Positions 37,199 through 44,898 of a DNA stretch of 64,000 bases are shown here, one piece after another. The notes beneath the pieces are model-generated. The model saw nothing but the letters and a program-made list of their open reading frames with translations. It was not told where the DNA came from and ran no database searches. The number at the start of each line of letters is the position of its first letter. The stretch's first letter is position 1. Source of the DNA: Alistipes sp. (GTDB lineage Bacteria > Bacteroidota > Bacteroidia > Bacteroidales > Rikenellaceae); the NCBI GenBank assembly GCA_017504485.1, contig JAFVRC010000015.1, positions 28,545 to 92,544 of the forward strand. Reading direction: 5' to 3'. The translations under genes and the position numbers were made by a program.

Positions 37199-37301
37199 TG
37201 TCGCGGTCGCCACATAGCGAAGATATGGTGATTATCGACGGAAATAGGGGGTTCGCAGCACTATATCGAGTGCATTATTTTATTTTTTCGTAAATTTTAC
37301 A

Positions 37302-37309
37302 TACCTTTG
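37302..37309 (+). promoter_or_regulatory. Promoter -7 box of the methionine operon
   Basis: TACCTTTG. The expected start near 37315 leaves a ~200-nt leader that begins with the Met/Cys-rich short ORF at 37333. The -33 region is T-rich without a clear TTTG. Confidence 0.65.
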
Positions 37310-37332
37310 TGATTGCAAACTTATCGAGAGAA

Positions 37333-37407
37333 ATGAAGTCGATGCAAAATATCACGATCGGGGCCGCTCGTCAGATGTGTGGCGATATGATGCGAATGTG
37401 CCGGTAG
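37333..37407 (+). CDS. Met/Cys-rich leader peptide ORF (24 codons)
   Basis: The first ATG of the predicted transcript, with GAGAG just upstream, opens 24 codons and stops at TAG 37405-37407. Six codons are Met and two are Cys, and the peptide ends MCGDMMRMCR, so four Met and both Cys fall in the last ten codons. It lies 106 bases before metY, the first of three methionine-synthesis genes. Known: leader peptides rich in the end-product amino acid (TrpL, HisL) sense charged tRNA by ribosome stalling. Inference: this one senses Met and possibly Cys supply. A stem GATA...TATC plus GTGCC/GGCAC covers the Met-rich codons. No oligo-T terminator follows, so the mechanism may be Rho-linked or translational. 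Confidence 0.6.
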   Translation: MKSMQNITIGAARQMCGDMMRMCR

Positions 37408-37415
37408 GCACTATC
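37384..37415 (+). promoter_or_regulatory. Hairpin over the end of the leader ORF
   Basis: GTGCC (37398-37402) pairs with GGCAC (37407-37411) around GGTA, and GATA (37384-37387) with TATC (37412-37415). It overlaps the Met-rich codons and the stop, so a ribosome paused there would open it. Confidence 0.45.
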
Positions 37416-37513
37416 TATCACTGTGGCTGTTACGCACTGCCCAACCCTCGAACAACACTCCCCCTCAAGTCAAATAATAATACTAATTCGATACACAATA
37501 AACTTTTCATACG

Positions 37514-38797
37514 ATGGAAGGTAAAAAATTACGTTTTGAGACTTTGCAGATACATGGCGGCTACTCGACCGACCATACACTGTCGCGCGGCTTGGCAATC
37601 TATCCAACCGCGGCCTATCACTTCAAGACTTGCGAGTATGCGGCCAACCTCTTCGAGTTGAGCGAGCCCGGAAATATATATACGCGTATCCACAACCCGA
37701 CCACGGCCAACTACGAGAATCGTGTGGCAGCACTCTACGGAGGGGTCGGTGCATTGGCCACCTCGTCGGGTATGTCGGCCATACTGCTCACGGTTACGGC
37801 TCTCGCGAAGGCGGGCGACAATATCGTAACTTCGCCATTTGTCTATGGCGGCACGCACAATCAATTCACTATCTCGCTGCGTAACCTCGGAGTCGAGGTG
37901 CGCTTCGCCAAGGATGCTGCGCCGGAGAGTATCGAGACTCTGATTGACGAGAATACACGCTTCGTATTCGTCGAGTCGATGTCCAATCCGGGATGTGTCG
38001 TTGCCGACATCGAGGCGTTGGCCAAGGTTGCACACTCGCATCAAATGCCACTCGTCGTGGATAACACCTTTGGTGCTTGCGGATACCTCTGCAATCCGTT
38101 GGAGTGGGGTGCGGATATCATCTGCGACTCGGCAACCAAGTGGATAAATGGCCACGGTACGGCCATGGGCGGTATTATCGTTGATGGCGGCACATTCGAT
38201 TGGGGCAATGGTCGTTATCCCGAGATTGACGGGCCGTCGGAGGGGTATCACGGCTTGAATCTGTGGCAGACATTCGGCCATCAGGCGTTTATCGTGAAGT
38301 GCCGTGTTGATGGGTTGCGCGACTTTGGCTGCTGCCCTTCGCCATTCGATACCTACCTGATGATGCTCGGCCTCGAAACCCTCTCGTTGCGCGTGCGCCA
38401 CGAGGCGGAGGCCACGGCGAAGCTGGCAGAGTTTTTCCGTGCGAACAAGTGCGTCAAGGCGGTGAGCTATGTAGGTTTTGAGGACGATCCGAACTATGCG
38501 CTGGCTCAAAAATACTTCCGCAAGGGTGCGGCGTGTGTTATCTCGGTGGAGCTGAAGGGTACGTTGGAGAGCACCGTGCGCTTTGTCGAAGGGTTGAAGT
38601 TGGTGGCAAATATGACGATGATTGGCGACTCGATAACCGTGGTTACACATCCGGCATCGACCACCCACAAGCAGCTCAGCGACGAGGCGATGGTCAAGGC
38701 CGGTATCGCGCCAACCTTGCTGCGCATCTCGGCGGGCTTGGAGGCCGTAGAGGATATTATCGAGGATTTTGAGCAGGCGTTTGCCAACATTCAATAA
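37514..38797 (+). CDS. metY: O-acetylhomoserine sulfhydrylase (Cys/Met metabolism PLP enzyme)
   Basis: 427 aa. KLRFETLQIHGGYSTDHT at the N-terminus and NIYTRIHNPTTANYENRVAALYGG are typical of O-acetylhomoserine aminocarboxypropyltransferases; the PLP Lys is in SATKWINGHGTAMGG at ~210-224. It makes homocysteine from O-acetylhomoserine and sulfide in the cytoplasm. It is followed by metX and hom, which provide its substrate, so the operon runs from homoserine formation to homocysteine. A leader ORF rich in Met codons precedes it. A cystathionine gamma-synthase role is less likely given the length and the metX neighbour. Confidence 0.95.
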   Translation: MEGKKLRFETLQIHGGYSTDHTLSRGLAIYPTAAYHFKTCEYAANLFELSEPGNIYTRIHNPTTANYENRVAALYGGVGALATSSGMSAILLTVTALAKAGDNIVTSPFVYGGTHNQFTISLRNLGVEVRFAKDAAPESIETLIDENTRFVFVESMSNPGCVVADIEALAKVAHSHQMPLVVDNTFGACGYLCNPLEWGADIICDSATKWINGHGTAMGGIIVDGGTFDWGNGRYPEIDGPSEGYHGLNLWQTFGHQAFIVKCRVDGLRDFGCCPSPFDTYLMMLGLETLSLRVRHEAEATAKLAEFFRANKCVKAVSYVGFEDDPNYALAQKYFRKGAACVISVELKGTLESTVRFVEGLKLVANMTMIGDSITVVTHPASTTHKQLSDEAMVKAGIAPTLLRISAGLEAVEDIIEDFEQAFANIQ

Positions 38798-38856
38798 ATT
38801 GTAGAACTAAAAATTAGCGGATGGCTAACGGCCAATGGCTGATAGCCGAAAATAAA

Positions 38857-39876
38857 ATGGCTAAATACTTTCACGATACAACCCCGTTGCATCTCGAATC
38901 GGGCGAGGTGTTGAGCGAGCTGACCATCGCCTACGATACCTACGGCGAGCGCAACGCCGATGACTCGAACATTATCTGGGTGTGCCACGCGCTGACCGCC
39001 TCGTCGGATGTCGAGTCGTGGTGGCCCGAGATGATTGGTAAGGGCCGGTTGCTCGATTCGTCGCGCTACTTCATTATCTGCGCCAACTTCCTCTCGTCGC
39101 ACTACGGTACGACGGGCCCCCTTTCGGTAAATCCGGCTACGGGCGAGAAGTGGTATGGCGACTTCCCGCTCGTCACGGTGCGCGATATGGCGGTGTGCCA
39201 CCAGCGACTGGCCGATCATCTCGGCATCAAACGTGTGAAGCTGCTTATCGGCAGCTCGATTGGCGGCTTTCAGTGTTTGGAGTGGTCACTGATGAACACC
39301 GAGCTGGCAGAGAATCTGGTATTGATAGCTACGGGAGCGACTACGACACCTTGGATTTCGGCCTTCAACGAGTCGCAGCGATGGATTTTGGAGAACGACT
39401 CGACCTTTGGCGAGCGACGTGATGATGCGGGCGAGCAGGGTATGGCTATTGCACGAAGCGTGGCGTTGTTAAGCTATCGCGGAGGCCCCGCCTACTGCCT
39501 TACGCAGCAGGATAACGAGGAGTTGAAGGGCAACTTGTTCAAGCGCAGAGTTCATTCGTACCAGCGTTATCAGGGCGAGAAGCTGCGCCGCCGATTTAAT
39601 GCCTACTCCTACTATCGCGTGTCGCAGGCGGTCGATTCGCACGACATAGGCCGTGGCCGCGGCGGTGTGGAGGCAGCGTTGGCTACGATTAAGAGTCGCA
39701 CGTTTGTGGTCGGCATCACGAGCGACATCCTCTTCACGGAGGTCGAAAATCGCTACCTGGCCGACAATATCAAGGGTGCGCACTATCATCTTATCGATTC
39801 GTCGTTTGGCCACGACGGATTTTTGGTAGAGGCCGAGTCGCTCAACAGACTTATTTTGGAATTTATAAACAATTAG
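38857..39876 (+). CDS. metX: Homoserine O-acetyltransferase
   Basis: 339 aa from the ATG at 38857. An alpha/beta hydrolase fold with nucleophile elbow LLIGSSIGGFQCLEW (Ser of GSSIGG), the MetX hallmark SHYGTTGPLSVNPATG near 85-102, and a C-terminal SSFGHDGFLVE supplying the catalytic His. It acetylates homoserine with acetyl-CoA, giving the MetY substrate. The upstream in-frame ATG at 38821 would add 12 residues encoded by a GGCTAACGGCC/GGCTGATAGCC-type repeat and is judged non-coding. It sits between metY and hom. Confidence 0.93.
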   Translation: MAKYFHDTTPLHLESGEVLSELTIAYDTYGERNADDSNIIWVCHALTASSDVESWWPEMIGKGRLLDSSRYFIICANFLSSHYGTTGPLSVNPATGEKWYGDFPLVTVRDMAVCHQRLADHLGIKRVKLLIGSSIGGFQCLEWSLMNTELAENLVLIATGATTTPWISAFNESQRWILENDSTFGERRDDAGEQGMAIARSVALLSYRGGPAYCLTQQDNEELKGNLFKRRVHSYQRYQGEKLRRRFNAYSYYRVSQAVDSHDIGRGRGGVEAALATIKSRTFVVGITSDILFTEVENRYLADNIKGAHYHLIDSSFGHDGFLVEAESLNRLILEFINN

Positions 39877-39883
39877 ATATAAG

Positions 39884-41074
39884 ATGGGAACAAAACAACT
39901 TACAATCGGAATGTTCGGTTTCGGCAATGTGGGGCGAGGTCTCTACGATGTGCTGAACACTATCTCCTCGAAGGAGGCGAGCATTAAGCGTATCTGCGTG
40001 CGCGACATAACAAAGGAGCGCGGTGTGGAGGCTGACTTTACGGACAGAGCCGATGATATCTTTGAGGACAAGGATATCAATCTTATCGTCGAGCTTATCG
40101 ACGATGCCGAAGCTGCATACCACATCGTCAAGCGAGCCTTGGAGAGCGGCCACTCGGTCGTGTCGGGCAACAAGAAGATGCTGGCACACCACATGCCCGA
40201 GCTTATCGAGTTGCAGCAGAAGCACAATGTGGCATTGCTCTACGACGCTTCGGCCTGCGGTAGTATTCCGGTAATTCGCAACCTCGAGGAGTACTACGAC
40301 AACGATCTGCTCGTCTCGGTGAAGGGTATCCTGAATGGCTCGTCGAACTTTATCTTGTCGAAGATTTTCAACGAGAACTACTCCTACGACGTGGCACTTC
40401 GACGTGCGCAGGAGTTGGGCTTTGCGGAGAGTGACCCGACGCTCGATATCGGTGGATGGGATTCGCTCTTCAAGCTAATTATCATCACGGTGCATGCCTT
40501 TGGCTGCTATGTGGCTCCGGAGAAGATATTTACCTACGGCATCTCCTCGATGAACGACGATGATATCCGCTTCGCAAACGAGAAGAAGCGCCGCTATAAG
40601 TTGGTGGCTCATGTCGAGAAACTCGAGAGCGGCAAGATAATCATGAGCGTAATGCCGCAACTTATCTCGCGAGACAAGTATATCTACTCGGTAGAGGATG
40701 AGTTCAATGGTGTGGTTATCAAGGGTAAGTTCTACGACAAGCAGTTTATGTTCGGTCGTGGTGCGGGTGGCCACCCGACTGGCTCGGCCGTGTTGAGCGA
40801 TATTATGGCCTGCTTCTACAACTACCGCTACGAGTATAAGCGTATGATTGGCCGCACGCCGGTAGAGTACACCGATGATGTGTTGGTGCGCGTGTATCTG
40901 CGCTACTCGAATACGGAGGATAGAGCATTGTTCGACTTTGCGAGCATCGAGGAGCAGTACATCAGCGATAAGTATCAATATGTCGTAGGTCATATCTCGC
41001 TGGCTAACCTTCACAAAATCAGTGCACAGATACGCGAGCGCGACCTCTTCGTTGCAGCCTATCCGACCAAGTAG
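39884..41074 (+). CDS. hom: Homoserine dehydrogenase
   Basis: 396 aa. N-terminal NAD(P) fold IGMFGFGNVGRGLYDVL, then the substrate-binding LLYDASACGSIPVIR, KGILNGSSNFILSKI and the catalytic stretch AQELGFAESDPTLDIGGWD. It reduces aspartate semialdehyde to homoserine. There is no fused aspartokinase and no clear C-terminal ACT domain, so feedback control by threonine may differ from ThrA-type enzymes. It is 7 bases after metX and ends in a strong terminator. Placing hom with metX/metY ties it to methionine rather than threonine supply. Confidence 0.95.
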   Translation: MGTKQLTIGMFGFGNVGRGLYDVLNTISSKEASIKRICVRDITKERGVEADFTDRADDIFEDKDINLIVELIDDAEAAYHIVKRALESGHSVVSGNKKMLAHHMPELIELQQKHNVALLYDASACGSIPVIRNLEEYYDNDLLVSVKGILNGSSNFILSKIFNENYSYDVALRRAQELGFAESDPTLDIGGWDSLFKLIIITVHAFGCYVAPEKIFTYGISSMNDDDIRFANEKKRRYKLVAHVEKLESGKIIMSVMPQLISRDKYIYSVEDEFNGVVIKGKFYDKQFMFGRGAGGHPTGSAVLSDIMACFYNYRYEYKRMIGRTPVEYTDDVLVRVYLRYSNTEDRALFDFASIEEQYISDKYQYVVGHISLANLHKISAQIRERDLFVAAYPTK

Positions 41075-41169: not shown

Positions 41170-41982
41170 ATGGTTGAGAAATTTATACTTGCGGGCGATA
41201 CGGCCCTGCATGTCTGTGACTCGGAGGTGGGTGAGCAGACAATCCTGCTGTTGCACGGCTATCTCGAGAGTATGTTGGTGTGGGATGACTTTGCCGCACT
41301 GCTCTACAAATCGGCGCGTGTCATCACGGTGGATTTGCCCGGTCACGGCATATCGGAGGTGAAGGGTGAGGTGCATACGATGGAGTATCTGGCCGATACG
41401 CTCTCGGCTGCGCTTGTGAAGCTCGGCGTGGAGCAGGCCTACGTCGTGGGGCACTCGATGGGCGGATATGTTGCTCTGGCCTTTGCCGAGCGGCACCCCG
41501 AGCAGCTCGCCGGTATTGTTCTGCTCAGCTCGACACCGAATGCCGACACCGAGGAGAAGGCCGCCAATCGCAAGCGTGAGATAGCTCTTGTCAAGTCGGG
41601 CAAGAAGGAACTCTTGGCGCATACGGCCCCTGCGGCGGGCTTTGCCGAACAGAATCGTCGTCGCTGCGCAAGCTATATCGAGGAGCTGGAGCAGATGGTA
41701 TTCCTCGCTGAGGACGCCGGCATAGTGGCGTTGCTGGGCGGTATGATTTGTCGTGCCGACCGCAACGATATGTTGCGTCGGTTGGATAAGCCGCAGCTCT
41801 TTATTCTCGGTCGTAAGGATGAGTATATTAGTGAGGCAGCGGCCGAGAAGATGGTGGCCAACCATCCGCAAGCCAAGGTGGTGTGGCTCGATAACTCCGG
41901 GCATATGGGCTTTATAGAGCAGCCGCAGGAGTGCGCCGAGGCAATTCTCGACTTTGCAGGCTGTGGTGCACAAGTCAAATAG
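41170..41982 (+). CDS. Alpha/beta-fold hydrolase
   Basis: 270 aa, no signal peptide. The oxyanion segment [16 protein letters not shown] at ~24-38, nucleophile elbow [12 protein letters not shown] (Ser in GHSMGG) at ~93-104, acid residue region [12 protein letters not shown] and final His in [11 protein letters not shown] give a complete catalytic triad. The overall pattern is of BioH/MenH/esterase-like cytoplasmic enzymes. It leads an operon with a LuxE-like acyl-activating protein, LicD and a glycosyltransferase, so it might release or transfer acyl groups in envelope glycan synthesis. The specific substrate is unknown. Confidence 0.88.
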
Positions 41983-41992
41983 AGGATGCGCA

Positions 41993-42958
41993 ATGGTGGA
42001 CTACGACGATATATTCGGGGCTGCGAGTGCCGATCGACTCGACGAGGTGACGCTCGAGGTGTTCTATATGCAGGCCGAGCGATGTGCCCCCTATGCCGAG
42101 TATCTGCGATTGATAGGCGTTGAGCCGAGAGAGATACGTCGGGTGGAGGATATACCTATGTTGCCCATCGAACTCTTCAAGACACACGACGTATATTCGG
42201 CCGTCGAGCCTCCGCAGGTGGTATTTACGTCGAGTGCAACGACCGGGATGACACCCTCGCGTCACCCCGTTGCCGACCTTGTGCTCTATGAGCGTTGCTT
42301 CACGGAGAGCTTTCGCCGATTCTATGGCGAGCCCGCGGAGTGGAGCATCTATGGACTGCTGCCGTCGTACCTCGAGCGTCAAGGCTCGTCGCTCGTCTAT
42401 ATGGTCGATAGGTTGATTGCGACGAGTGGTCGAGGAGGCTTCTATCTCGATAACTACCAAAAGTTGCTCGACGATATGAGGCGCGACGAGCACCCGAAGA
42501 TTCTGCTTGGCGTGACCTATGCGCTACTCGACCTTGCCGAGCAGTATGCTCCGCGGTTGGAGGGCACGGTGGTGATGGAGACCGGCGGAATGAAGGGGCG
42601 GCGGCGCGAACTGCCGAAGAGTGAACTGCACGAGGTGCTGTGCCGTGCCTTTGGCGTGGAGCAGATAGCCTCGGAGTATGGTATGGCGGAGCTTATGTCG
42701 CAGGCATACTCGAAGGGTGACGGAGTATTCTTCGCCCCTCCGTGGATGCGTGTCTTGGTACGCGATATAAACAACCCGTTCAGCCGTCTGGCGGATGGGC
42801 GGCGCGGTGCGATTGATATTATAGACCTTGGCAATATCCACTCTTGCTCGTTTATCGCGACGCAGGATGTAGGCATGCGCTATGCCGACGGCTCGTTCCG
42901 TATCGAGGGGCGTGTGAGCAAGAGCGATATAAGGGGTTGTAATCTGCTGGTTCAATAA
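41993..42958 (+). CDS. LuxE-like acyl-protein synthetase family protein
   Basis: 321 aa. The phosphate-binding-like loop FTSSATTGMTPSRH at ~78-91 and later ETGGMKGRRRELPKSELH and SEYGMAELMSQAY match the LuxE/acyl-protein synthetase group, related to AMP-forming phenylacetate-CoA ligases. LuxE activates fatty acids with ATP; the Bacteroidetes homologues are not characterised. The start is the second Met (41993), 10 bases after the hydrolase stop; an earlier in-frame ATG overlaps that gene. The neighbours LicD and GT2 suggest decoration of a surface glycan, perhaps with acyl or amino-acyl groups. Confidence 0.82.
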   Translation: MVDYDDIFGAASADRLDEVTLEVFYMQAERCAPYAEYLRLIGVEPREIRRVEDIPMLPIELFKTHDVYSAVEPPQVVFTSSATTGMTPSRHPVADLVLYERCFTESFRRFYGEPAEWSIYGLLPSYLERQGSSLVYMVDRLIATSGRGGFYLDNYQKLLDDMRRDEHPKILLGVTYALLDLAEQYAPRLEGTVVMETGGMKGRRRELPKSELHEVLCRAFGVEQIASEYGMAELMSQAYSKGDGVFFAPPWMRVLVRDINNPFSRLADGRRGAIDIIDLGNIHSCSFIATQDVGMRYADGSFRIEGRVSKSDIRGCNLLVQ

Positions 42959-42970
42959 TAAAATGTGGCT

Positions 42971-43819
42971 ATGAGGTACGACAAGGGGGATTTAAGGCGT
43001 CTGCACGAAGTGCTGTACGAGATTTTGGGTGAGGTGGTGCGCGTATGCGAGGAGTGCAGTATCCCATACTTCATTCAGGGAGGCTCGGCCATAGGAGCCC
43101 TCTACGATAAGGGTATTGTGCCGTGGGACGACGATATCGATGTGGGTATGACGCGCGAAAACTATGAGCGTTTTCTGCGCGAGGCACCTGCGCATCTCAA
43201 GCCCGAATACTTCCTCGAATGGTTCGGCACCGAGGCCTCTACGCCGTTCTACTTTGCGAAGGTCAAGAAGAACAATACGCTCTTTGTCGAGCAGATATGG
43301 CGCGATATGGATATACACCACGGAATATTTGTCGATATATTCCCTTACGACCGTATTCCCGACAATGCCCTCTGCGAGCGGCTGCACCGCTTTGGCGCAA
43401 AGTTTTGGATAAACTGCTTTATGGGCAAGCAGGTGTGGCTGTGGCGGCACTGTGGCCACTGCGGCATAGAGAAGCCTCTCCCGAAGTCGTGGGTGGGATG
43501 TGCGGCGATACGCCTTGTGTGCGCCCTCTTCTCGCGCAAAACCATATATCGACTGATGAATATGCACCTCGCACTCTACAACAAATGCAACACTTCGCGT
43601 GTGAATATCGTGCGTATGCCGAAGGATCAGATTGCGCGAAGCGACATCGAAAATCCGGTGCGTATGCCGTTTGGTCCGCTGACGGTATGGGCTCCGCGGC
43701 ACATCGAGGATTATCTGCGCCACCACTATCCTAATCTGCGCCCTGTGTTGCCGGAGGAGGAGCAGGTAAACCACGCGCCATATTGTCTAATGTTCGATAC
43801 CACGCAGAGTGACCAATAG
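42971..43819 (+). CDS. LicD family phosphotransferase
   Basis: 282 aa from ATG 42971 (a GTG six bases earlier is possible). IPYFIQGGSAIGALYDKGIVPWDDDIDVGM at ~30-60 is the LicD nucleotidyltransferase-fold motif with the paired Asp residues, and HGIFVDIFPYD follows at ~118-128. LicD proteins transfer phosphocholine or other phospho-groups to LPS, teichoic acid or capsule; some relatives in Bacteroidetes act in capsule loci. It is 2 bases before the GT2 gene and likely acts with it. The donor cannot be inferred; no choline uptake or CTP-transferase gene lies nearby. Confidence 0.93.
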   Translation: MRYDKGDLRRLHEVLYEILGEVVRVCEECSIPYFIQGGSAIGALYDKGIVPWDDDIDVGMTRENYERFLREAPAHLKPEYFLEWFGTEASTPFYFAKVKKNNTLFVEQIWRDMDIHHGIFVDIFPYDRIPDNALCERLHRFGAKFWINCFMGKQVWLWRHCGHCGIEKPLPKSWVGCAAIRLVCALFSRKTIYRLMNMHLALYNKCNTSRVNIVRMPKDQIARSDIENPVRMPFGPLTVWAPRHIEDYLRHHYPNLRPVLPEEEQVNHAPYCLMFDTTQSDQ

Positions 43820-43821
43820 TT

Positions 43822-44898
43822 ATGCAGAAACGCCTGTCAATCATCGTGCCTACCTACAATATGGAGGCCTACCTCGAGAGGTGTGTGGAGTCGGTGCTCC
43901 GCACGCCGTCGTTGGCCGCCGTGGAGGTGGTGATAGTCAATGACGGAAGTCGCGATAGCTCGCTGCGTATAGCCCGTGAACTCTCCGACCGCTACACCTC
44001 GACCGTGCGCGTAATCGACAAGCCGAATGGGAACTATGGCTCGACGATAAATGCGGCACTGCCCGTGGTGCGGGGCGAGTATGTGAAGATTCTCGATGCC
44101 GACGATATGTTCGACGGAGGCAGCCTTGTCGAGTTGCTTGATGTGTTGAAGCGTCTTAGCGGTGTGGATATGGTTGTTACGCCCTATATCGAGGAGGGGC
44201 GACATTCGAGGCGGCGTGTCGATTACAACATCTACGCACGCAAAATATACGACTACGGGAAGGTGTATGAGGCCGAGCAGGTATTTGCCGATGGGGCGAT
44301 ACGCTTCTTTGCCATGCATGGCGTGACATATCGTACAGAGATGCTGCGCGAGATGCATTATAGGCAGAGCGAAGGCATATCCTATACCGATCAGGAGTGG
44401 GTGTTCTATCCCTTATTCGGCGTGCGTACCATAGCCTTTGCCGACGTGCCGCTCTATATCTACAATGTGGCGCGTGAGGGGCAGACGATGGATAGTAGGG
44501 TGCAGATGCGCCAAATATCGCAGCTTGTGCAGCTTACCGAGCATATCGCTCGCTACTATGTAGCGGCCGAGGGGGGCGTGTTGCAACCGTCACGCAGAGA
44601 TTTTCTGCGCGAGATTGTTGCGGGGCGCATGCGTGTTCTATATCGAAAATATCTGCTCGAAATGCCGCATGATACATTTCTATCGTCGGACTTTGCGGCC
44701 GTGGATGCACGGATGATGCAGCTCGCACACCTTTGCGGTATAGAGAGTCTGCGAGTGCCCGTGAATAATCTTCTAAAGGTCGATTTGCTCGACTATTGGC
44801 GTATGCACGGCCGCCGTTACAGCCCATTTGTGTTGTCGTTTCTGCGTACGGCCGACAAGGCTATGCAGTGGCTTCACGCCCTGCTCTTCCGCCGTTAG
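43822..44898 (+). CDS. Family 2 glycosyltransferase
   Basis: 358 aa. Starts with the GT-A fold hallmark LSIIVPTYNMEAYLERCVESVL, then VVIVNDGSRDSS and the sugar-nucleotide/metal motif KILDADDMF at ~93-101. The C-terminal third is basic and helical and could sit at the membrane face. It should add a sugar to a surface polysaccharide or lipid. It ends two bases before the converging queA stop, with no terminator between. Partner genes: LuxE-like and LicD. Confidence 0.93.
   Translation: MQKRLSIIVPTYNMEAYLERCVESVLRTPSLAAVEVVIVNDGSRDSSLRIARELSDRYTSTVRVIDKPNGNYGSTINAALPVVRGEYVKILDADDMFDGGSLVELLDVLKRLSGVDMVVTPYIEEGRHSRRRVDYNIYARKIYDYGKVYEAEQVFADGAIRFFAMHGVTYRTEMLREMHYRQSEGISYTDQEWVFYPLFGVRTIAFADVPLYIYNVAREGQTMDSRVQMRQISQLVQLTEHIARYYVAAEGGVLQPSRRDFLREIVAGRMRVLYRKYLLEMPHDTFLSSDFAAVDARMMQLAHLCGIESLRVPVNNLLKVDLLDYWRMHGRRYSPFVLSFLRTADKAMQWLHALLFRR

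Follow-up and report, generated by a model that had tools for sequence, protein, structure and literature searches.

A methionine-codon leader ORF upstream of metY-metX-hom in Alistipes and its terminator- and SAM-I-linked relatives in Bacteroidales

The metY-metX-hom operon of an Alistipes species is preceded by a short, Met-rich open reading frame (ORF) which, judged from comparison of relatives, is probably part of a ribosome-mediated methionine sensor, itself probably descended from a device that combined a riboswitch with a leader ORF. Comparison across genomes brings out a conserved reading frame, Met codons kept in that frame, a covarying hairpin (P2), linkage to metY and, in sister species, a form of the leader with terminator and antiterminator. 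In the sequences sampled, methionine control in Bacteroidales often includes a Met-codon leader. The window, by which we mean the whole stretch of DNA that was analysed, is 64,000 nt long (contig JAFVRC010000015.1 of assembly GCA_017504485.1, positions 28,545 to 92,544 of the forward strand); coordinates are those of the window and all features described are on its + strand.

The leader ORF (MKSMQNITIGAARQMCGDMMRMCR, then the stop) occupies 37333–37407, with its ATG at 37333 and TAG at 37405–37407. Six of its 24 codons are Met (the start counted) and two are Cys, and it ends MCGDMMRMCR. A preliminary description of the window had pointed to this Met- and Cys-rich ORF, directly 5′ of metY-metX-hom, and to a GAGAG 5′ of its ATG, and both are borne out. 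A −7 promoter box of the Bacteroidetes type (TACCTTTG, 37302–37309) was read from the sequence as a match to TAnnTTTG, the sigmaA consensus given in the text of PMC9723704. The first gene of the operon, metY (O-acetylhomoserine sulfhydrylase, 37514–38797), scores above the cut-off of TIGR01326 (547.1 bits, cut-off 495.1), as does hom (homoserine dehydrogenase, 39884–41074) for NF004976 (303.1 bits, cut-off 205); the gene between them, metX (38821–39876), is homoserine O-acetyltransferase-like and matches TIGR01392 with E = 1.4e-97 and 326.9 bits, below the cut-off of 500. Farther 3′ of the met genes (41954–44898) are ORFs whose weak similarities, none reaching an NCBIfam cut-off, are to a LuxE-like ligase, a cholinephosphotransferase and a glycosyltransferase.

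The 3′ end of the leader (AUGCGAAUGUGCCGNUAGGCAC) encodes MRMCR and the stop, and can form a hairpin that contains the stop codon. It belongs to a near-invariant block (ATGCGAATGTGCCGGTAGGCAC, 37390–37411), near-invariant as judged by a genus search that permitted three mismatches, which encodes MRMCR and the stop and continues with GCAC. The predicted hairpin, P1 (GTGCC-GGTA-GGCAC, 37398–37411), has the stop codon in its loop and at the start of its 3′ arm. A hairpin covering the Met codons had been described before; the hairpin is present, but of the Met codons it reaches just the third base of the last one, from which it runs through Cys, Arg and the stop; the other Met codons lie outside it. 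A second hairpin, P2 (GGCTGT-TACGC-ACTGCC, 37425–37441), is supported by covariation and has the loop consensus UACGY with a closing pair; in this species it includes one T-T mismatch. The TCGAG at 37324–37328, ahead of the leader start, could also pair with CTCGA after P2 (37447–37451); at this possible long-range helix, seen in close relatives only, those relatives have GTTCGAG and CTCGAAC. Dinucleotide shuffling of 37310–37513 yielded an ORF with at least eight Met and Cys codons in 52 of 20,000 shuffles; the leader ORF by itself is thus no more than suggestive, and it is the comparison with relatives that decides.

Matches to metY were found in 56 of 61 genomes of the genus (its own included), and 50 upstream regions were read. 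An ORF ending in MRMCR and a stop is present in 25 of these (MRMCL in one), an ORF ending RRV or CRV in three, and neither in 22, of which 14 have another gene within about 90 nt ahead of metY and eight do not, as read from the sequences. The leader is not universal within the genus. It seems to have been lost in a close relative (L004, genome G047), where no leader was found before a metY that is 95% identical to that of the window and has a TAnnTTTG-like box just upstream. Of the 25 genus leaders, 24 (all but L007) have a TAnnTTTG box in the 170 nt that precede the block. Over the 60 nt before the block, these 25 leaders have ATG 79, 4 and 0 times in the three frames, that of the leader given first, and stop codons 0, 33 and 23 times.

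The 25 leaders had been found partly by their Met content, and the frame test was therefore redone on loci taken from a nucleotide pattern alone. The genome contigs of 84,980 species were scanned with a 20-position pattern at the leader 3′ end (ATGCGAATGTGCCGNTAGGC), giving 77 stretches that are exact matches by construction; they come mostly from Alistipes and other Rikenellaceae assemblies, and also from Tidjanibacter, Avirikenella, one Muribaculaceae and three Prevotella. A metY start follows within 400 nt in 74 of the 77, and no metY was found on the DNA examined for the remaining three. Among the 76 unique loci, the frame counts over 60 nt are 209:12:0 for ATG and 5:95:71 for stops; an in-frame ATG falls within the 30 nt before the block in 73 loci and is missing there in three. 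With Prevotella set aside, Met makes up 207 of the 1480 codons upstream of the block (74 loci). Such counts are those expected of a Met-rich ORF that is translated and free to drift at its other residues, and they strongly support the central claim of the preliminary description, a Met-codon leader peptide before a methionine operon. The comparison of relatives is a test of the kind that it had proposed: Met codons are kept in frame, and their number upstream of the block varies (1 to 6 within 60 nt in the 25 genus leaders). Its emphasis on Cys holds inside the MRMCR block, where Cys is conserved, but upstream Cys codons have no clear frame preference in the window's form, and Cys was not retained as a second sensed amino acid.

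The three Prevotella loci (P. brunnea, L176; P. ihumii, L194; P. corporis, L211) have a near-identical element with the minimal leader MMRMCR. The metY genes of the first two are 67–68% identical to that of the window, about as close as Tidjanibacter's, and no metY was found on the P. corporis DNA examined; given the near-identical element and this degree of metY similarity, horizontal transfer into Prevotella is possible. Across the order, a MRMCR-stop pattern, which also accepts TGG as stop, matched in 20 of 393 genomes (its own included). We regard these matches as mostly due to chance, since a covariance model of the element, run under stricter filters on 294 genomes of the order, found only its own genome and one weak match (E = 0.019).

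Sister species carry the leader in another form. A pattern of leader stop, antiterminator arm and terminator occurs in 15 of 151 genus genomes, none of them among the 57 that have the MRMCR block. Peptides of this form, for example MNTARRYDRVSEMLHQNMMMVMCMCNRFRRV, precede metY. The set holds 16 leaders, one of which (L299) is unreadable; in all 15 readable ones (14 from the genus and L074 from another family) the last Met lies eight codons before the stop, and in the 13 unique leaders ATG is distributed 78:1:0 by frame. When the arm over the stop was omitted, the terminator folded in 13 of 13 unique sequences; when the fragment ended ahead of the terminator 3′ arm, the antiterminator formed, with GCCGG paired to CCGGC, again in 13 of 13. 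Folded entirely free, three keep the antiterminator and ten the terminator. In these predictions the sister form has the geometry of a textbook attenuator, with mutually exclusive antiterminator and intrinsic terminator before metY.

In other families of the order, comparable leaders stand behind SAM-I riboswitches (RF00162). The window has no SAM-I match, and neither has any of the 61 genus genomes under stricter filters; 38 of 128 genomes of the order have 42 matches. A SAM-I core pattern is present in 18 of 120 metY upstream regions, all from the order-level set, in which 19 of 89 loci lack a usable metY start, and none from the genus. A crude regular expression served to collect the 18, and the display filter applied (at least three Met and Cys) hid none of these loci; 13 of them coincide with RF00162 matches. 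Starting from the riboswitch, 30 of the 42 matches were examined, and 27 have a readable core: 18 lead into a Met-ended leader (12 of these are metY loci already counted) and nine do not. In 24 SAM-linked leaders, the last eight positions hold 46 Met among 192 residues and the rest of the peptides 11 among 589, the start not counted; the final 21 nt contain ATG 41:0:0 by frame. The first gene is metY in 18 of the 24; in the other six it encodes an amino-acid kinase, read as aspartate kinase (L276, L277, L290), an alpha/beta hydrolase, read as metX (L282), or a homocysteine S-methyltransferase domain protein, read as metH (L289, L291). The leader ATG mostly lies 40–54 nt after the SAM-I core and the metH-like genes of L271 and L281 start at +43 and +40, and these similar distances suggest that the riboswitch gates translation. 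A general hairpin at the stop codon of SAM-linked leaders, striking by eye, failed its control: the mean z was −0.52 in stop-centred 44-nt windows, −0.49 at 60 nt upstream, −0.54 at 60 nt downstream and −0.01 at 90 nt downstream.

One locus joins the two kinds of element. In a Candidatus Avirikenella (L173), a SAM-I riboswitch (1636–1731 of that locus, 60.5 bits) is followed by an MRMCR leader before metY, and this arrangement is possibly a bridge between the riboswitch-linked and stand-alone forms. In other orders of the class, 42 SAM-I loci with 39 readable cores gave a Met-ended short ORF that is clear in two (L357, L379) and possible in three (L366, L368, L372); with Met-ended ORFs so rare there, the device seems to belong mainly to Bacteroidales. 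Three SAM-I loci of another order (L362, L366, L368) have short ORFs that resemble one another (MK.ES.LY.GYE.LN.IFEEN...) and start about 80 nt beyond the core, perhaps another kind of leader or a small protein. At L267, L268, L269 and L274, SAM-I precedes genes resembling cystathionine-synthase-type PLP enzymes (Pfam was checked for L267 only). A T-run follows the riboswitch closely in L267 and L268, so that the output of this riboswitch may differ with the gene that it precedes.

Between the leader and metY, the window has a C-rich, G-poor stretch (37441–37513; 23 C and 4 G in 73 nt) that may suit Rho loading. In 23 other upstream regions of the window, taken as control, the mean fraction of C is 0.207 and that of G 0.215; in the clade, between leader stop and metY, they are 0.201 and 0.139, a moderate C bias, and C exceeds G in 55 of 75 unique clade regions versus 9 of 23 control regions. 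Our own scan found no intrinsic terminator with a U-tract between leader stop and metY in the window and a terminator-like sequence in 1 of 75 unique regions of its lineage, and no conserved alternative pairing that would link ribosome position to metY was found in that lineage. With no intrinsic terminator found before metY, the window's leader is not a textbook copy of TrpL. Of the TrpL/HisL layout put forward in the preliminary description, the short ORF behind a promoter and the in-frame Met enrichment stand, but the terminator and antiterminator were not found in the window's lineage and are predicted in the sister species. Many loci among L007–L040 have an extra hairpin of varied sequence between P2 and metY, tens of nucleotides before metY and without a U-tract, possibly a pause site or an operator, or else due to chance.

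That no terminator was found in the window's lineage also fits a variant of the sensor, compatible with it, in which the leader ribosome or P1 and P2 alter access to the metY start rather than transcription. The spacing of SAM-I from leader and metH-like starts in other families, suggestive of translational gating, points the same way, as do 12 of 25 minimum-energy folds in which at least three of the first eight bases of the block pair with the metY start region. Shuffled metY starts gave 8.1 of 25, however, so that this pairing is not clearly above chance and is not claimed, and the sister form has an intrinsic terminator; we consider a translational output rather unlikely.

The block is conserved beyond what codon counting needs. 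With up to three mismatches permitted, the genus search found it in 59 places in 57 of 151 genomes, 54 of them exact. Among the remaining five, GGCAC is replaced by GGCGC in two, which puts a G-U pair in P1, and the first ATG by CAG in one; the last two carry three differences each, one of them lacking an open leader frame and the other reading past MRMCR with no stop there. The CAG variant (L412) has a leader ending MSQRMCR and a metY-like frame downstream. This search gives a less biased view of the block than the 77 exact-match loci and is blind to insertions such as that in L025 (G022). In it, TAG and the third positions of the CGA and TGC codons almost never change; the third base of CGN, which lies in the P1 loop, varies freely among the 76 unique pattern loci (T 47, A 17, C 8 and G 4). 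The 5′ arm of P1 is coding (AUG UGC CGN). Its invariance in the alignment used for covariation (A1) is largely due to the construction of the search pattern, and the three-mismatch genus search, where a compensatory double change would count as two mismatches, found none in P1; the two U-G pairs are the only changes inside P1 in real leaders. P1 is without compensatory support of its own. Because it is fixed while P2 covaries, we read P1 as being under double constraint, from codons and from pairing.

Such conservation might instead reflect arrest by the nascent peptide, much as tryptophan induces arrest of TnaC. The C-terminal MRMCR would act in the exit tunnel, and a ribosome stalled at UAG, possibly through Met or SAM, would control metY in place of codon starvation. 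An MRMCR that is nearly invariant while upstream residues drift fits this, and so does the lack of compensatory double changes in P1 against many in P2, as expected if P1 residues and pairing are both fixed. The variants MRMCL (L025) and SQRMCR (L412) nevertheless occur, other ends are seen in the sister form and in other families (for example RRV, PRMR or MRMQ), and neither the invariant third base of CGA nor the in-frame Met enrichment upstream of the block is explained by a peptide acting in the tunnel. Arrest as the basis of control is, on this evidence, improbable.

The statistics on P2 come from A1, an alignment of 50 of the 77 pattern loci. Left out of it were near-duplicates, those whose P2 is atypical (L166, L170, L173, L210, L215 and L219 among them) and a few more, so that the figures describe typical members. 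All six pairs of P2 have changed on both sides, and 90.2% of its cells are paired. Counted over the whole structure, both sides have changed in 66 cells compared with 21.1 in shuffles, and 94.4% of cells pair compared with at most 50.8% when the structure is slid along the alignment. The number of pairs with change on both sides (six) was reached by 39 of 500 shuffles, and the other whole-structure measures by 0 to 3. A hairpin with a 7-nt loop was obtained for 70 of 78 unique sequences, with U, A, C, G and Y of the consensus at 59, 65, 55, 68 and 64, in a search that gave a bonus to the consensus loop and that in at least one case (L007) picked a different hairpin. Run on the 61 genus genomes, the covariance model of the element yields 26 copies in 25 of them, one in each except G055, which has two.

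These properties could also be those of an RNA element alone, riboswitch-like or bound by a protein, in which P1, P2 and the block are what matters and the ORF is incidental. The exact block at 54 of 59 places despite three permitted mismatches, the conserved UACGY loop and the covariation of P2 would all follow, and the P2 loop could form a pseudoknot with GCG of AUGCGA (93.3% of A1 cells fit, one side being fixed by the search pattern). The bias of ATG and stop codons between frames upstream of the block runs counter to an incidental ORF. No Rfam 15 family matched the leader at gathering score within 37200–37560, where the sole match at relaxed thresholds was a human lncRNA family (12.5 bits, threshold 70). 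We judge a purely RNA-based element very improbable. That a chance Met-rich ORF without function is at work, as the moderate rarity of the ORF in shuffled sequence might allow, can be set aside as next to impossible in view of the frame test, the linkage to metY, the crowding of Met at the ends of SAM-linked leaders and the conservation of the block.

For the ribosome-mediated methionine sensor, we infer that the ORF is translated in the cell, that it responds to Met-tRNA and that an output step couples this response to the operon. Lying just after the promoter, the leader ORF would be translated while the RNA is being made, with Met codons up to its stop. Scarcity of charged Met-tRNA would slow or stall the ribosome at AUG-CGA-AUG or within the Met-rich stretch, and an ample supply would let it read on to UAG, open P1 and be released. 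The position of the ribosome would decide which among P1, P2 and the RNA that follows is exposed, and hence whether metY-metX-hom is expressed. Rho-dependent termination in the C-rich stretch is the output that we favour for the window's lineage, because no intrinsic terminator was found there. Points that weigh against the sensor are the 22 of 50 genus metY regions with neither form, the close relative L004 without the leader, the modest size of the C bias in the clade, the three pattern loci lacking an in-frame ATG near the block, the very strong conservation of the block, and the failure to find a terminator or conserved alternative pairing that would couple ribosome position to metY.

The relatives look like steps in the evolution of such a sensor: riboswitch with leader, riboswitch with MRMCR leader (L173), leader with terminator, and leader without terminator. 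They could be accounted for by a two-input device of Bacteroidales in which SAM-I gates a Met-ended leader ORF, so that SAM and charged Met-tRNA would be read together. Loss of the riboswitch in Rikenellaceae would have left a stand-alone sensor of Met-tRNA in two forms: the textbook terminator attenuator and, in the window's lineage, the form with near-invariant block, stop-codon hairpin and covarying UACGY hairpin and no intrinsic terminator. We put this scheme forward tentatively, as one that is plausible and open to real doubt.

Bacterial methionine synthesis is controlled mostly by repressors, SAM riboswitches or T-boxes, and a Met-codon leader, above all behind SAM-I, would be a different solution in abundant gut bacteria. 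Among known attenuators, the polycysteine short ORFs of mycobacteria are leaderless, respond to Cys and precede a sulfur-metabolism operon. They resemble the Met leader in being rich in codons for a sulfur amino acid before an operon of sulfur metabolism, and differ from it in amino acid, in being leaderless and in phylum; we know of no link between them and SAM-I. In the literature searched (most subscription papers and all bioRxiv preprints lay outside its coverage), no description was found of a Met leader peptide in Bacteroidetes or of a two-input device made of SAM-I and a Met-ended leader. Within the same phylum, clues for leader-peptide attenuation before amino-acid operons are given for Flavobacterium psychrophilum in PMC9723704, the main text of which does not contain the word methionine, and attenuation as such has therefore already been suggested for the phylum. 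For Bacteroides thetaiotaomicron, the text of PMC7366714 describes short ORFs in long 5′ UTRs and names no Met leader among them; here too leader-peptide attenuation is suggested by the authors. A riboswitch combined with a translated short ORF before a methionine gene, as in the SAM-I-linked leaders, is described in the text of PMC11260477 for Mycobacterium tuberculosis, where B12 riboswitches with translated uORFs precede metE and ppe2 and Rho is discussed as a possible output. The ligand there is B12, MetE is suppressed by its uORF, which is contained in the aptamer, and that text does not describe the uORFs as sensors of Met codons. The SAM-I riboswitch itself shares the pathway with the Alistipes leader and stands upstream of comparable leader ORFs in other Bacteroidales families. 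In the TrpL and HisL attenuators, a short ORF between promoter and first gene has codons of its own pathway near its end and its stop inside a hairpin. The window's leader resembles them in the position of the ORF, the Met codons near its end and the stop in a hairpin, to which the sister species add antiterminator and terminator; it differs from them in Met as the presumed sensed amino acid, in the near-invariant 3′ block of the window's lineage, where no terminator was found, and, in other families, in the SAM-I riboswitch upstream.
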